From the NCBI RefSeq assembly GCF_014698845.1, contig NZ_JACJTV010000002.1, forward strand, positions 1 to 64,000: DNA of 64,000 nt, in the 5' to 3' direction. Of the stretch, positions 32,476 to 39,717 are shown one piece after another (position 1 is the first letter of the stretch; each line of letters opens with the position of its first letter). Made by a program: the position numbers and the translations under genes. The notes under the pieces were generated by a model. That model saw nothing but the letters and a program-made list of their open reading frames with translations, made no database searches and had not been told where the DNA came from. The stretch comes from Coleofasciculus sp. FACHB-1120. Lineage in GTDB: Bacteria; Cyanobacteriota; Cyanobacteriia; Cyanobacteriales; FACHB-T130.

Positions 32476-33309
32476 ATGCCAATTCCACTTCTTGAAATTA
32501 CACCAACCACGCAGAATCAGCGTGTAGAAGGGTACGAAGTACCTGATGAGGACGACGCACAGATTTATCGATTGACAGATGCGACCTCTGAAACGGCAAT
32601 TAATGACTTGATCTGGGCTGCCTACCGGCAAATCATCAGCGAACATTTAATTTTAGAAAGCTACCGCCAACCTTTTCTGGAATCTCAACTGCGGAATCGA
32701 GCCATATCCGTGCGCGAGTTTATTCGAGGATTGGGCAAGTCCGATGTTTATCGGCAGTTGGTAGCAGACACGAACTCCAACTACCGCTTAGTTGACATCA
32801 CCTTCAAGCGGTTTCTGGGACGCGCCACCTACGGCAAAGACGAGCAAATTGCTTGGTCAATTGTCATTGCTTCCAAGGGATTGCATGGCTTTATCGATGC
32901 CGTTGTTGATAGCGAAGAATACCGCCAGAACTTCGGCGATGAGATTGTCCCTTATCAGCGCCGCCGGTTTAACGAGCGACCCTTTAACTTGGTCAACCCC
33001 CGGTACAGTGATTACTGGCGCGGTCGCATGATGGGTCTGGATACTCGGAGTTACTTTCAAGTCGGGGGTCAAAACCCAGTGGGTAAAACATCGGTTCGGG
33101 AAGCAATTCCTAGCACCTTCTTGGCAATGGCTCGGAGTATTGCCCCAAGCGAAGTTAACTACCAGCGCACCAGAGATCGGGTACTCTCTCAAGTTAAAAA
33201 CATGGAGATTCCCGACACGACTAGCAAAGCTGCCAACTTGCAACCTGCTGTAGGTCGCACCGACGTAGCCCTCCCCTACCGCTACCTTTATCCGACGCCA
33301 AAAGCCTAA
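32476..33309 (+). CDS. cpcG1: Phycobilisome rod-core linker, copy 1
   Basis: CpcG joins the phycocyanin rods to the allophycocyanin core. The 277-residue protein starts [20 protein letters not shown]. It has the PBS linker domain ([20 protein letters not shown] ... RFLGRATYGKDEQIAWSIVI ... SEEYRQNFGDEIVPYQRRRF), followed by the conserved RPFNLVNPRYSDYWR. The C-terminal ~100 residues are more variable (NPVGKTSVREAIPSTFLAMA). There is no C-terminal hydrophobic segment, so it is a core-binding CpcG, not a thylakoid-binding CpcL. Confidence 0.95.
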   Translation: MPIPLLEITPTTQNQRVEGYEVPDEDDAQIYRLTDATSETAINDLIWAAYRQIISEHLILESYRQPFLESQLRNRAISVREFIRGLGKSDVYRQLVADTNSNYRLVDITFKRFLGRATYGKDEQIAWSIVIASKGLHGFIDAVVDSEEYRQNFGDEIVPYQRRRFNERPFNLVNPRYSDYWRGRMMGLDTRSYFQVGGQNPVGKTSVREAIPSTFLAMARSIAPSEVNYQRTRDRVLSQVKNMEIPDTTSKAANLQPAVGRTDVALPYRYLYPTPKA

Positions 33310-33312
33310 AGG

Positions 33313-33361
33313 CTCATGGCTTATCGCTAATCGTTCATGGTTCATGGCAATTAGCAATCCC
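33313..33361 (+). repeat. Heptameric repeats between cpcG1 and cpcG2
   Basis: Seven 7-base units (ctcatgg, cttatcg, ctaatcg, ttcatgg, ttcatgg, caattag, caatccc) fill most of the 78-bp gap, ending 26 bp before the cpcG2 start. Confidence 0.78.
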
Positions 33362-33387
33362 ACCAGATAGGAACTAACAATTTACCT

Positions 33388-34134
33388 ATGTCAATCCCTT
33401 TGCTTTCATACAAACCCAGTTCGCAGAACCAGAGAGTAGCGGGTTACGAAGTGCCGAACGAAGACACTCCCCGGACTTATCGGATTGAGAACTGCATCGA
33501 CAATGGCGACCTTGAGGAATTAATCTGGGCAGCCTACCGTCAGGTTTTCAGCGAACACGAAATCCTCAATTCTTTTCGTCAGGCTGACTTGGAATCTCAA
33601 GTGAAGAACCGCGCCATTACTGTGCGCGACTTCATCCGAGGTCTGGCGAAGACCGAAGGCTTTTACCGCTTGGTTGTTGAGAAAAACTCCAACTATCGAG
33701 TCGTCGAAGTTTGCCTCAAACGAATCTTGGGCAGGGCACCCTACAACAAAGACGAAGAAATTGCCTGGTCGATTAAAATTGCCACTAAGGGGCTGAGCGG
33801 CTTCATTGATGCCCTCGTTGATAGTGAGGAGTATCAGTCTAACTTTGGCAACAATACGGTGCCTTATCAGCGTCGTCGCTACAAAGATCGACCCTTTAAC
33901 TTGGTGACGCCTAGCTACGCCGATTACTGGCGTGATCAGGAAGAAAGTGCGCGCTACAAATGGGGCAATGTGCGTAACTTCTTGGATATGGCACGGGCAA
34001 TCAACCCGAAAGCCGTCACCAATACTGTTACCGTTAACACGGCTAACATCAAAATTCCCGACATGACACGGGATAATACAGCGCAAGAGACACGAGTCTC
34101 GATTAACTCGCAAGCGAGTTTTCCACTCCGGTAG
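33388..34134 (+). CDS. cpcG2: Phycobilisome rod-core linker, copy 2
   Basis: This is the second tandem cpcG (248 residues). It shares [60 protein letters not shown] and [20 protein letters not shown] with its neighbours and plainly arose by duplication. The C-terminus is short and polar (SINSQASFPLR), again with no membrane anchor. Paralogous CpcG proteins are thought to place rods at different core positions; which position this copy serves is not evident. Confidence 0.94.
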   Translation: MSIPLLSYKPSSQNQRVAGYEVPNEDTPRTYRIENCIDNGDLEELIWAAYRQVFSEHEILNSFRQADLESQVKNRAITVRDFIRGLAKTEGFYRLVVEKNSNYRVVEVCLKRILGRAPYNKDEEIAWSIKIATKGLSGFIDALVDSEEYQSNFGNNTVPYQRRRYKDRPFNLVTPSYADYWRDQEESARYKWGNVRNFLDMARAINPKAVTNTVTVNTANIKIPDMTRDNTAQETRVSINSQASFPLR

Positions 34135-34214
34135 CATGGGGATTCCATCGACCAGAGGATACCCTGATGCTGGAAAATAGGAAGTCTCAACCACTTTATA
34201 AGGGAGATTTTTAA

Positions 34215-34976
34215 ATGGCACTGCCATTACTGGAATACAAACCAACCACCCAAAACCAACGAGTTAAGAGCTTTGGAAAGGCGGATCTTGACGAAGATAC
34301 GCCATACATCTATCGCGTGGAAGATGCCAATTCACCGATAGAAATGGAAGAGCTGATTTGGGCGGCTTATCGCCAAGTCTTCAGCGAGCATGAAATCCTC
34401 AAATTCAACCGTCAGATTACTCTGGAATCTCAGCTGAAAAATGCGGCGATTACAGTACGGGAATTTATTGCTGGTCTGGCGAAGTCAGAGGCATTTTACC
34501 GTGTGGTTGTCTCGGTCAATAACAACTATCGGCTTGTAAACATTTGTCTCAAGCGCTTTTTAGGTCGGGAGCCTTACAACAAAGCTGAAGAAATCGCTTG
34601 GTCAATTAAAATTGCCACTTTGGGATTCAGCGGTTTTGTTGATGCCTTGGTGAACAGCCAAGAATATACTGACAACTTTGGGGACTTCACCGTACCCTAC
34701 CAGCGTAAGCGGATGGAACAGCGTCCTTTCAACCTAGTGACGCCTCGCTATGGCGAAGACTTCCGCGAAACTGCTGGCACTGTCAAGACCGATTGGCGCT
34801 TCACTGTGGAGAAGTTCTACAGCCGCAAGAACCAGGAGCGGCAACTTCCCGAAGGCGATCCCCGCCGGTTCCGCGAGGTAGCGGCATCGCTCAGTACCAA
34901 GCGCAACTACCCACAACGGGTCTCTGCGTTTGATATTGATTACCTCAGTCGAGTGCCCGTGCGTGGCAACCGCTAA
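34215..34976 (+). CDS. cpcG3: Phycobilisome rod-core linker, copy 3
   Basis: This third tandem cpcG (253 residues) starts [20 protein letters not shown] and shares [20 protein letters not shown] and [20 protein letters not shown] with copy 2. Its C-terminus differs: [20 protein letters not shown], then [20 protein letters not shown]. This basic tail may set core-binding specificity. It has a good ribosome site (AAGGGAGA) at 34200-34207, unlike copy 1. It ends the operon. Confidence 0.94.
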
Positions 34977-35115: not shown

Positions 35116-35152
35116 ACTTTTTGGGTGCATGCAGTATTAAGCGATCGCCTAC

Positions 35153-35233
35153 TCAAACCTCATCAGGATTAATCCCCATTGAGCGCAATCTTTCTGCTAA
35201 TTGCTCTGCTCTAGCTTGAACCAATTCTTTCTG
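35153..35233 (-). pseudogene. Uma2-family C-terminal remnant
   Basis: The minus strand reads QKELVQARAEQLAERLRSMG followed by INPDEV and a stop. This is the repeated-tail ending typical of cyanobacterial Uma2 proteins. An in-frame stop lies directly upstream, at the NADAR gene boundary, so no start or catalytic core remains. The fragment butts directly onto the stop codon of the NADAR gene, marking a recombination junction. Confidence 0.7.
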
Positions 35234-35680
35234 TTATTGCTGGTTGCTAAGGCGTAGTATCTCTCGTACTTCTACTAAAATTTGTCCCAACATATTCTTG
35301 CCACTGCCATCAGCACCGCAACCCCAATAATAATCACCGGGTGCATTTTCAACAATTAACTCATCGCCGGTAGAAAGTAATTCTTCGCGAATGTCGGCAT
35401 GAGTTTCAAATTTGCGTAGCACGGCTTTTCGCATAATGTCATCTTTTACCTGTTCCCAATCGGGACGCAGGGGACGCGATCGCTCTCGTCCCATTTTCGC
35501 CGCATCCTTCGGTGTCTTTACCTGGCGAATTTGGTCAGCGTGGGGTGTACCAACAAACTTTTGTGCTTGAAAATAATGTTCGCTGGTAGGCCAATAGAAC
35601 CCATCTAATTCAAAGCCGTGAGGCGAAAAATTGGAGAAACAACCATATTTTTCGCGAGTGCTGTAAAAGTAAATTGTCAT
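35234..35680 (-). CDS. NADAR-family ADP-ribose hydrolase (DUF1768)
   Basis: NADAR proteins are a family of N-glycosidases related to YbiA; characterised members remove ADP-ribose from modified guanine in DNA or act on related ADP-ribose or riboflavin-pathway compounds. The 148-residue protein shows the expected blocks: IYFYSTREKYGCFSNFSPHG (with the SNFSP motif), FYWPTSEHYFQAQKFVGTPH (the PTxEHYFQAQKF motif with the active-site Glu), AAKMGRERSRPLRPDWEQVK, MRKAVLRKF, and GSGKNMLGQILVEVR at the end. It lies 76 bp behind the HPF1-like gene on the same strand, so the two are probably co-transcribed. No DarT-type toxin is adjacent. It could reverse ADP-ribosylation promoted by the upstream protein. 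Confidence 0.88.
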   Translation of the reverse strand: MTIYFYSTREKYGCFSNFSPHGFELDGFYWPTSEHYFQAQKFVGTPHADQIRQVKTPKDAAKMGRERSRPLRPDWEQVKDDIMRKAVLRKFETHADIREELLSTGDELIVENAPGDYYWGCGADGSGKNMLGQILVEVREILRLSNQQ

Positions 35681-35756
35681 TTTAAAAGTAGTTAGTCTAG
35701 TGAATCCGCCACACCTCGAACCCTGTCTGCGCTGCTTTGTTAATTAATATTTGTCG

Positions 35757-37346
35757 CTAATAAATATCGACCGACTGGCGCGATCGCTGTTGATAATGGA
35801 CAGATGCGATCGCAGCCAAAGCATCTCGACCGAGGGCGCGGTAGGCTGTATTCAGCAGTTTAGCAGCAGCCGCTTCTCGTTCCCGATCGCCACCGGAAAA
35901 CCAGTGCAAGTCACGACCTAACGCCAACGCCTCAGCCGGTTGACCCTCGGCACAAGCTTTTAGTGCTGCTGCAATCCAGTCTTCGACAATTGGCGCATCC
36001 TCTAAAATAGCTGTTCTAATTACTTCAAGATCGCGCTGAGGAAAAGTTTCGGTGCTGAAGCCGGGAATTGCGACCCCCGCGCCATCATCAGTCGCAATCC
36101 TGAAATCCAGCGGCGGTTGCTTGTAGGCTTTCTCGTACAGACTTCCCATTTCAGGGCGTTCCGCCGTTTCAAACGCCATTACCGCATCGCGGAGTGCTGA
36201 GAGTCTAACTCGTTGATGCCGGGAATCGTTGTCGTAGCGGTCATATTCCAACTGAGAGACCGCTTTTTCGATTTGAAAGCGAACCTGTTGAAGTAATGTT
36301 TGACAACCGTCATCACAGACAGGAATGCCGTCATTGTTCCAGTAATATTTCACACTCGTGGGAAGTTCTCTGGGATCATCGTACCAAAGACCAAAATGCA
36401 GACCATCGCCGCCCCCGTACAGCAAAGTGAGAAACTCTGGCGGATCGCGGTAATAGCGGTAATGCAAGCGATGGTCAAGTTCTAATATAGGTTTTCGCTG
36501 CAAACCTTCATGACTGAATAAATCAAACAAACCGCAAGGCGTTGCAATCCATTGCATTTCTTGCCGTTCAATCGGAGTTAAGCTGAGCCAAAAAGCCCAG
36601 AATCCAAAAACATGGTCGGGTAAGGTCAAGCCGTGGGTTTGTTGCACTAGCGATCTCACGGGTTCCACCAACGCTTGCGCTTTTTGTTGGGCATCCAGGC
36701 GCATCTGCTCGATCGTGGCGGCATCCGGCAGATTTTCCTGACGCCATGCCATATATTCCGCTTTCCAGGAACGTTCATTTGCCGCTTGCCACAGATGCCG
36801 CCAGATATCCGTCCAATGACCTGAATCATCAGGGCATTCTTTAATTTGCTGACGCGCTGCTTTGTAGAATTCTTCGTGCCGATAGGAGTTTGGTGTCCAG
36901 CGTTCTGTTTCTGTTTCCCAGCGTTGTTTTGCCCATGAAACGCCATGTTCTGCGATCGCTGTAAAAGATGCTTCAAAAGCATTTAGCAAAGTCTGTCGTT
37001 CTCCGGCAACTTTCGCCTCAAATTCTTGACGAAATGCTTGGAAAACAGACCATTCGGCAACTAAATCATCCTCTGGTCGATCCAACTGCTTCAGCCACCA
37101 ATTATCAAATTCCTCCTGAAGCATCTGTTCAATATCTTTTTCAATCTCATCCCGGAAGCGAGGACGCGGATCTTCCCCCAGTAACTCGAATTGCTCTTGA
37201 TTTAGGGTGATTTCTGCTTTGCGACCCAATATTTCGACTTCAACAACAAGCTTTTCTCCGGGTTGCAACTTGACTACAACACCCTGAAAATCACTAAAGG
37301 GACCTGCGGTAATCGCTCCTACGCTTCCTGGTTTGAAATTTTTCAT
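35757..37346 (-). CDS. KOW (NusG-C-like) + HPF1-like/DUF2228 ADP-ribosylation-family protein
   Basis: The ~529-residue protein has three parts. Residues ~8-62 (counting from the upstream GTG at 37361) closely follow the KOW domain at the C-terminus of NusG: GSVGAITAGPFSDFQGVVVK, then VEVEILGRKAEITLNQEQFE. Residues ~65-230 are charged and helical. Residues ~235-534 resemble eukaryotic HPF1: LTLPDHVFGFWAFW, then HYRYYRDPPEFLTLLYGGGD with HFGLWYDDPRELP, DDGAGVAIP, and LALGRDLHWFSG. Aligned from memory to human HPF1, Glu472 falls at the Glu that completes the PARP active site; Arg is not obviously kept. ATG 37346 follows GGAGGGAGGAA and is the start. It is followed by a NADAR hydrolase gene. Function is inferred, not shown. 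Confidence 0.75.
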   Translation of the reverse strand: MKNFKPGSVGAITAGPFSDFQGVVVKLQPGEKLVVEVEILGRKAEITLNQEQFELLGEDPRPRFRDEIEKDIEQMLQEEFDNWWLKQLDRPEDDLVAEWSVFQAFRQEFEAKVAGERQTLLNAFEASFTAIAEHGVSWAKQRWETETERWTPNSYRHEEFYKAARQQIKECPDDSGHWTDIWRHLWQAANERSWKAEYMAWRQENLPDAATIEQMRLDAQQKAQALVEPVRSLVQQTHGLTLPDHVFGFWAFWLSLTPIERQEMQWIATPCGLFDLFSHEGLQRKPILELDHRLHYRYYRDPPEFLTLLYGGGDGLHFGLWYDDPRELPTSVKYYWNNDGIPVCDDGCQTLLQQVRFQIEKAVSQLEYDRYDNDSRHQRVRLSALRDAVMAFETAERPEMGSLYEKAYKQPPLDFRIATDDGAGVAIPGFSTETFPQRDLEVIRTAILEDAPIVEDWIAAALKACAEGQPAEALALGRDLHWFSGGDREREAAAAKLLNTAYRALGRDALAAIASVHYQQRSRQSVDIY

Positions 37347-37830: not shown

Positions 37831-39717
37831 TTAAGCGTGACCTAATTCAACAATATTTTCCCACGCTGAAAACATTCGCAGGCAATTTCTACCTTCATGC
37901 TTCGCTCTGTAAAGCGCTCGATCGGCTTGATGTAATAAATCTTGAGAATCAACTAAATTAACTGCGCTAGCGATCGCGCCACCGAGACTAATCGTAATGG
38001 GTAGCAGCAGATCGTTAGAAATCTTGAAAGGACGATCGGCGATACAAGAGCGCAAACTTTCACCATACTCCAAGCCATTGTGCAAATTCAGTCCCAGTGT
38101 GATGCAGACAAACTCTTCACCGCCATAGCGATACAACAGACTGCTAGGGCGTGCATTGGATTGTAGTCGTCCAGCGATCGCTTGCAGCACACAATCTCCC
38201 ACTGTGTGACCATACGTATCGTTCACCCCCTTAAAATGATCCACATCAATCAGGAATACGCACAAATAACGGTAGCGAGTATTCGCATCGCGGTTGCCGA
38301 CTTGTCGCAGCATATGAGGCAACGCCTGATCCATTGCCCGCCGATTTAATAAACCCGTTAACTGATCCGTCAGCGACAAAGATTCTAGCAATTCATTACG
38401 GGCAGTCAATTGCTGATTCACTTGTCGCAGTGCCTGATTTGCTTCGCTCAATTCTCGCGTTAACCGCTGCAATCGCAATCCAGCTCCCACCCGCGCCCGT
38501 AATTCGCTCATATCAATCGGTTTTGGAAGATACTCATCAGCTCCAGTATCTAAACCCTCCACCCGGTCTTTTACATCCCCACGAATCGTCAGCAAAATAA
38601 AAAATGCCAAAGATAATTCGGGATCGGATTTGACCTGGCGGCACACTTCCAGTCCATTAATGACTGGCATCATCCAATCGCAAATAATTAGATGAGGATA
38701 TAGCTCTTTTGCTTTCGCTAATCCCTCTTCCCCATTCGTTGCAACTATGACTTCATGACCTAGAAGTTGGAGCGAGTTTTTGATCACTAACCGAACGCTA
38801 GGATCGTCATCAATAATTAAAATTTTTGACAGAGAACGAACTTGCGTACCTCCAGCCCGATCGGCGGCAAGAAGGACTGGAGTTTCACTCTCCAACTTAT
38901 CCCAGTCAACGATCTCAAAGAAAAAAGATTGGATTTTTTGGAAATGATGTTCTATTTGAAGCACCAAGTCAGTAACCTCTTTAAAGTTTTTTTGCTGACT
39001 CTGAAATTCTAATTGATTGGCTAAAAATTTTAATTCATTGACGCCTACATTTGCACTAGCGCCCCGGATTTGATGGGCTTTATGTTCGATTGAGTCAAAA
39101 TTCTTAGAGAGAGTTGCTGATTTTATCGATAATAAATTGGCTTTTGTGTCTTCCAAAAAAGCTTGTAAAATTTCTTTTCGTAATCTCATATCCCCTAGGG
39201 TTATATCGTCCAAGCGATTTAAATCTACCCAGTTATCAATACTTGATTCATCTATATCGTTACTAGAGTAAACCGGAGGAAATCCCTTTGCTAACTCTAT
39301 AGAGGCAGAGGCGATTTTCTGCTTATTTTTGGTAATATTTTGGCTCCACTTTTCTAACTTAGCTGCCAATTCTTCCTCACTAACCGGCTTAAGTAAATAA
39401 TCATCCATACCAGCATTTAGGCAGCGTTCCCAATTTGCTTTCATGCCGTTTGCAGTCATTGCAATCACGATTATCTGCCGCGCATCACCTTCTAATTGAC
39501 GAATTTTTTTTGCGGTTTCATAACCGTCTAGTATCGGCATCTGACAATCGAGGAGGATTAGGTCATAGTTTACTTGCGATCGCATCCATAATGCTTCTTG
39601 ACCATTGGCAGCAACATTGGCTTCATAACCTAACTTCTTTAACTGTCTTAATACAACCTTTTGGCTCACAAGACTATCTTCAACTAATAGAATTTTTAGG
39701 CATTCTTGCTGGGTCAT
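37831..39717 (-). CDS. REC-HPt-REC-GGDEF response regulator (diguanylate cyclase)
   Basis: This 628-residue multi-domain regulator is unusual in order. A receiver (residues ~8-125: [20 protein letters not shown], Lys in YLLKPVSEEEL) comes first. An HPt domain follows (~190-280: [20 protein letters not shown], His phosphoacceptor), then a second receiver (~295-415: LIICDWMMPVINGLEVCRQV, PKPIDM), and a GGDEF domain (~455-615) with an intact YRYGGEEFVCITLG active site. It should make cyclic di-GMP under phosphorelay control. It is divergent from the giant hybrid kinase 270 bp away, whose receiver and HPt domains are similar, so the two probably form one phosphorelay. Confidence 0.9.
   Translation of the reverse strand: MTQQECLKILLVEDSLVSQKVVLRQLKKLGYEANVAANGQEALWMRSQVNYDLILLDCQMPILDGYETAKKIRQLEGDARQIIVIAMTANGMKANWERCLNAGMDDYLLKPVSEEELAAKLEKWSQNITKNKQKIASASIELAKGFPPVYSSNDIDESSIDNWVDLNRLDDITLGDMRLRKEILQAFLEDTKANLLSIKSATLSKNFDSIEHKAHQIRGASANVGVNELKFLANQLEFQSQQKNFKEVTDLVLQIEHHFQKIQSFFFEIVDWDKLESETPVLLAADRAGGTQVRSLSKILIIDDDPSVRLVIKNSLQLLGHEVIVATNGEEGLAKAKELYPHLIICDWMMPVINGLEVCRQVKSDPELSLAFFILLTIRGDVKDRVEGLDTGADEYLPKPIDMSELRARVGAGLRLQRLTRELSEANQALRQVNQQLTARNELLESLSLTDQLTGLLNRRAMDQALPHMLRQVGNRDANTRYRYLCVFLIDVDHFKGVNDTYGHTVGDCVLQAIAGRLQSNARPSSLLYRYGGEEFVCITLGLNLHNGLEYGESLRSCIADRPFKISNDLLLPITISLGGAIASAVNLVDSQDLLHQADRALYRAKHEGRNCLRMFSAWENIVELGHA

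Follow-up and report, generated by a model that had tools for sequence, protein, structure and literature searches.

Do an HPF1-like gene and a NADAR gene that lie side by side in a cyanobacterium form an ADP-ribosylation module? HPF1, known from metazoans and a few protozoa (PMC4858568), is the factor that turns PARP1 and PARP2 to serine. The adjacency was worth testing since YbiA-type NADAR proteins are able to serve as antitoxins, as in the YarT-YbiA pair (PMC11125620). The two genes stand in a 64,000-nucleotide stretch of Coleofasciculus sp. FACHB-1120 (contig NZ_JACJTV010000002.1; the whole stretch is called the window here), with the NADAR gene downstream of the HPF1-like gene on the minus strand and a gap of 76 bp between them (Table 1). 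The host is a cyanobacterium, and phycobilisome linker (cpcG-like) genes adjoin the locus. A reading made from the sequence only had proposed that the two genes might make a self-contained modification/demodification pair. The open reading frames, coordinates, shared direction and gap on which it was built were all confirmed. A promoter and terminator scan of the locus gave no clear excess over shuffles and is therefore no guide to co-transcription.

Table 1. Features of the locus in the window and, in the last line, of the corresponding site in the sister species.
Feature	Coordinates	Strand	Basis or remark
NADAR protein gene, YbiA / riboflavin-intermediate N-glycosidase type, 148 aa	35234..35680	-	PF08719, TIGR02464, E. 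coli YbiA
Spacer between the HPF1-like and NADAR genes, 76 bp	35681..35756	.	26 bp native to NADAR and 35-bp fossil at 35706-35740
HPF1-like protein gene, 529 aa	35757..37346	-	ATG at 37346; PF10228 3.1e-13
HPF1 (PF10228) domain, aa ~226-529	35760..36671	-	Pfam, sequence against structures, model, Foldseek
Codon of Glu467, aligned with human HPF1 catalytic Glu284	35946..35948	-	Alignment with human and Nematostella HPF1
KOW domain resembling the NusG C-terminal domain, aa 4-54	37185..37337	-	phmmer, Foldseek
Two-receiver/Hpt/GGDEF protein gene	37831..39717	-	Right-hand flank of the variable site, fixed in three related genomes
Tll0287-like/HAMP gene of the sister species (G386)	L050:12502-13560		Upstream of NADAR, before the contig end that faces HPF1

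The C-terminal part of the larger protein has the HPF1 fold. Its match to PF10228 scored 50.4 bits against the Pfam gathering cut-off of 27.1, and solved HPF1 structures were matched at 7.7e-15 by the sequence and at 2.4e-26 by the profile of its family. The structure model of the domain (pLDDT 86, pTM 0.85) retrieved HPF1 in Foldseek at an E of 1e-10 with a TM of 0.73. The next match outside HPF1 had an E of 0.85, HPF1 being the sole fold to match below that value, and an ART fold was absent from the matches. All 18 members of set A2 also matched PF10228 at a loose limit. The HPF1 homology that the sequence-only reading had suggested is thus borne out by domain, structure and fold comparisons alike. 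The likeness to animal HPF1 (C4orf27; PF10228, formerly DUF2228; the PARP1/2 accessory factor) covers the whole domain fold and includes the motifs HxR..DxPEF..T and G..L..AY..L.R, although the identity is only about 22% in the structural alignment. A kinship of the N-terminal part of the HPF1 domain with SUKH (Smi1/Knr4), suggested by eye from motifs, was rejected, as Pfam gave no SUKH match up to an E of 10 and the 50 listed Foldseek matches of the model included no SUKH structure.

The earlier description of this protein stood for its HPF1 part and missed the N-terminus, where a KOW domain is joined to the HPF1 fold by a helical linker (aa ~61-225). The KOW domain matched NusG-CTD chains at 2.8e-5 and 2kvq at 3.4e-5 with phmmer, and NusG again by Foldseek. 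It shares the KOW fold and the GPFxDF and GR motifs with NusG; unlike NusG, the window protein has the KOW domain only, without the N-terminal (NGN) domain. Animal HPF1 also differs from the window protein by lacking this added domain. The length of 534 aa given before counts from an upstream GTG; the start is probably the ATG, which lies behind an AGGAGG-like site. In comparison with the sister species, which is a single species pair, dN/dS was 0.16 (NG86) or 0.25 (YN00) for the gene and 0.02 for the KOW domain. The low value for the gene is as expected if the gene is kept by selection.

Does the domain keep what HPF1 uses to work with PARP1? In human HPF1, changes at F268, F280, D283, C285 and K307 weaken PARP1 binding (PMC7884425). 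In our alignment with human and Nematostella HPF1, all five positions are replaced in the window protein (F268A, F280K, D283A, C285G and K307A), so that the contact positions flanking Glu467 are not conserved. The position of catalytic Glu284 itself is occupied by Glu467, and by Glu in the sister species too, whereas it is Ala in every aligned actinobacterial homologue, Asp in Okeania and Gln in Trichocoleus. At Tyr238 and Arg239, which stabilise the Glu284 loop in HPF1, the alignment places Pro-Gln of the window protein, in columns that nearby indels make uncertain.

The partner enzyme was equally missing from the profile searches. PARP (PF00644) did not exceed the cut-off in any of 20 genomes with HPF1-like genes and gave no match at all in the window's genome; a Kitasatospora carrier had two partial, sub-threshold PARP-like matches. 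DarT (PF14487) was found in none of 19 genomes, the window's genome included. These counts apply to enzymes that the two profiles recognise, as ARTs diverge enough to evade both PF00644 and PF14487. The absence of a neighbouring PARP or DarT gene, noted before from the window, therefore holds and extends to the whole genome. Two macrodomain genes were seen in this genome (G000:C13:33973-34311 and G000:C25:78578-78916).

The Glu at the Glu284 position in the window species and its sister may point to a role with an unrecognised ADP-ribosyltransferase. Under such an explanation, the HPF1-like protein would complete the active site of a bacterial ART encoded elsewhere, independently of NADAR, and Glu467 would be the acceptor-activating base in the cyanobacterial copies. 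The full-length HPF1 homology fits this, and the macrodomain proteins could reverse ADP-ribosylation. Nevertheless, the variation of the Glu284 position among the other homologues, the replaced contact residues and the lack of PARP-type ARTs in the carriers make it quite improbable in our judgement.

The NADAR protein, in contrast, resembles its known relatives closely. It matched PF08719 at 3.5e-43 and TIGR02464, the riboflavin-intermediate N-glycosidase family, with 167.9 bits against an equivalog cut-off of 73.7, in agreement with the family assignment made from sequence. Its closest solved relative is E. coli YbiA (3e-47), the match to YbiA / RibX (COG3236, TIGR02464; NADAR superfamily) runs over the whole length with no notable difference, and the subtype is YbiA/RibX and not the DarT1-linked type. 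NADAR was found in 49 of 60 relatives, and a second NADAR gene, 62% identical, is present in the window's genome (G000:C9:77020-77457). About 20 related genomes contain a NADAR closely akin to that of the window (72-99% identical), and among them only the sister species has HPF1 as well. The protein would probably serve in housekeeping N-glycoside damage control, acting on riboflavin intermediates and/or ADP-ribosyl-guanine. It also matched the PADLOC candidate PDC-M42C at 4.6e-15, which probably reflects NADAR-family resemblance and is not evidence of defence.

If the two genes worked as a pair, are they found together elsewhere? At 21 other HPF1-like loci, no NADAR was detected near the HPF1-like gene (tblastn with E no higher than 1, over flanks that extend at most 10 kb to either side and less at contig ends), and the window's genome is the only one in which the two are adjacent. 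Neither clustering nor Pfam searches of ten co-directional neighbours revealed a recurring neighbour or fixed operon partner of bacterial HPF1-like genes, and several copies have opposite-strand genes on both sides. Two genomes of the same family that are without HPF1 (G387 and G389) have the same NADAR at this site, again to the left of the GGDEF gene seen in the window, from which it is separated by two ATPase genes or by a GHL10/SLH gene. In the sister species (G386), NADAR and the HPF1-like gene are separated by the Tll0287-like/HAMP gene and by transposase ends, and conservation with the window is interrupted at the start codon of NADAR and 7 bp beyond the stop codon of HPF1. Judged by eye, the NADAR contig closes and the HPF1 contig opens in opposite ends of a single IS630-like transposase gene; joining the contigs through it is our interpretation and not assembled sequence. 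On the other side of the sister's NADAR, downstream, an insertion (L050:10945-11912) holds broken transposase-like frames, and the alignments on its two sides share 7 bp (window 35166-35172), the pattern that a target duplication would leave.

The spacer in the window probably preserves a trace of how the genes met. It includes 26 bp of native NADAR upstream sequence, as in G387. A further 35 bp represent, in degraded form, the C-terminal coding end of a TPR-AAA ATPase gene, and G387 has that gene intact at the corresponding place. The fossil is 91% identical to the G387 ATPase gene over 35 bp; its best match reached 31/35 as compared with at most 22/35 in 200 shuffles, and its translation reads KAAQTGFEVWR in the window and KAARTWLEVWR in G387. 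Because the spacer keeps a fossil of a gene that is intact in G387, the adjacency of the two genes most likely formed by deletion of intervening genes, a conclusion based on the 35-bp remnant and on a single genome in which the ATPase gene is intact.

These observations bear directly on the proposed pair, in which ADP-ribose would be added by the HPF1-like protein, acting by itself or together with an ART encoded elsewhere, and removed by the adjacent NADAR, in the manner of DarT1-NADAR or YarT-YbiA. The common strand and short gap, the ability of YbiA-family proteins to be antitoxins beside ARTs (PMC11125620) and Glu467 speak for it, and the locus resembles those toxin-antitoxin pairs in having a NADAR gene beside another gene. 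It differs from them in having a neighbour other than an ADP-ribosyltransferase and in lacking conservation as a pair. The genes are apart in the sister and unlinked at the other loci, an outcome that the sequence-only reading had itself named as one that would refute it, and the spacer resembles a deletion scar; for these reasons the self-contained pair put forward by the sequence-only reading is unsupported. With a fold that is that of HPF1 and not of an ART, no PARP over the cut-off and no DarT, we regard such a module as very improbable. On the other hand, we have high confidence that the genes function separately and became neighbours by chance.

The distribution of HPF1-like genes is patchy. 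The PF10228 search found the gene in 1 of 386 cyanobacterial genomes and 3 of 100 relatives. As PF10228 caught only part of the Nonomuraea domain, a bacterial HPF1 profile was added to the census; it left the cyanobacterial count of 1 in 386 unchanged and found the gene in 5 of 201 genomes from the order of Nonomuraea. A scan of 84,980 species yielded at least 18 loci, mostly in Nonomuraea, Sphaerisporangium, Actinomadura, Streptomyces and Kitasatospora, plus Okeania and Trichocoleus, a lower bound since the scan used two short motifs from three sequences. The KOW domain, linker and HPF1 domain occur together in four aligned Nonomuraea/Sphaerisporangium copies, whereas the Streptomyces copies often consist of the HPF1 domain alone. 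In the tree, the cyanobacterial KOW pair stands apart from the actinobacterial set, with deep forks that are unsettled and long branches that meet. The HPF1-like gene is probably a separate, horizontally acquired gene of patchy bacterial distribution. In two of the actinobacterial genes (L016, Actinomadura sp. HBU206391, and L018, Nonomuraea sp. NEAU-A123), the C-terminal part looks frameshifted.

Such a distribution, the lack of fixed neighbours and a site that varies in this lineage and lies beside transposase ends in the sister would also suit selfish or defence cargo that spreads among bacteria, such as an immunity or anti-phage factor. However, HPF1-like homologues were absent from 72,556 plasmids, 50,697 phages and viral contigs, and the HPF1-like protein had no significant PADLOC match. 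We consider a cargo role unlikely, less so than the involvement of an unrecognised ART.

The explanation that we favour, with some reservation, is that the genes have separate functions, that a deletion joined them, and that the HPF1-like protein is an adaptor independent of PARP. NADAR would be an old resident of the site beside the cpcG cluster, the HPF1-like gene would have a separate origin, probably by horizontal acquisition, and the loss of the genes between them would have brought the two together. The HPF1-like protein would then bind other proteins without the help of a PARP. The C-terminal domain of NusG docks on S10/NusE or Rho, and the KOW domain may, as a tentative suggestion, dock likewise on the transcription or translation machinery, so that the docked protein would present its HPF1 domain to some partner. 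Docking of this kind would not be family-wide, since short homologues are without KOW and the window KOW has Leu at what we take to be the position of E. coli NusG Phe165 (numbering counted back from Ala181). Somewhat more doubtful still is the broader idea that the HPF1 fold has an ancient PARP-independent function in bacteria, here coupled through KOW to transcription or translation, and that it came to assist PARP1/2 in eukaryotes later.

The novelty lies in an HPF1 family of patchy occurrence in bacteria that have no detectable PARP, some of its members carrying a fused NusG-like KOW domain. A search of the open-access literature, with subscription papers outside its scope, found no paper describing bacterial HPF1. 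The existence of such a family points to a role of the fold beyond PARP chemistry, and the bacterial proteins offer a simple system for finding it. It also calls for caution, in that the name HPF1 in a bacterial annotation should not be taken as ADP-ribosylation.

Two further observations concern the NADAR side of the locus. Beside the site lie three tandem cpcG-like phycobilisome linker genes (32476-34976), one of which (34215-34976) was confirmed by Pfam and the other two assigned by resemblance. Between them and NADAR, at 35151-35230, is an apparent remnant of a Uma2-family C-terminus (AERLRSMGINPDEV), and a Uma2-family gene stands intact at the matching place in G387 (L092 8927-9664).
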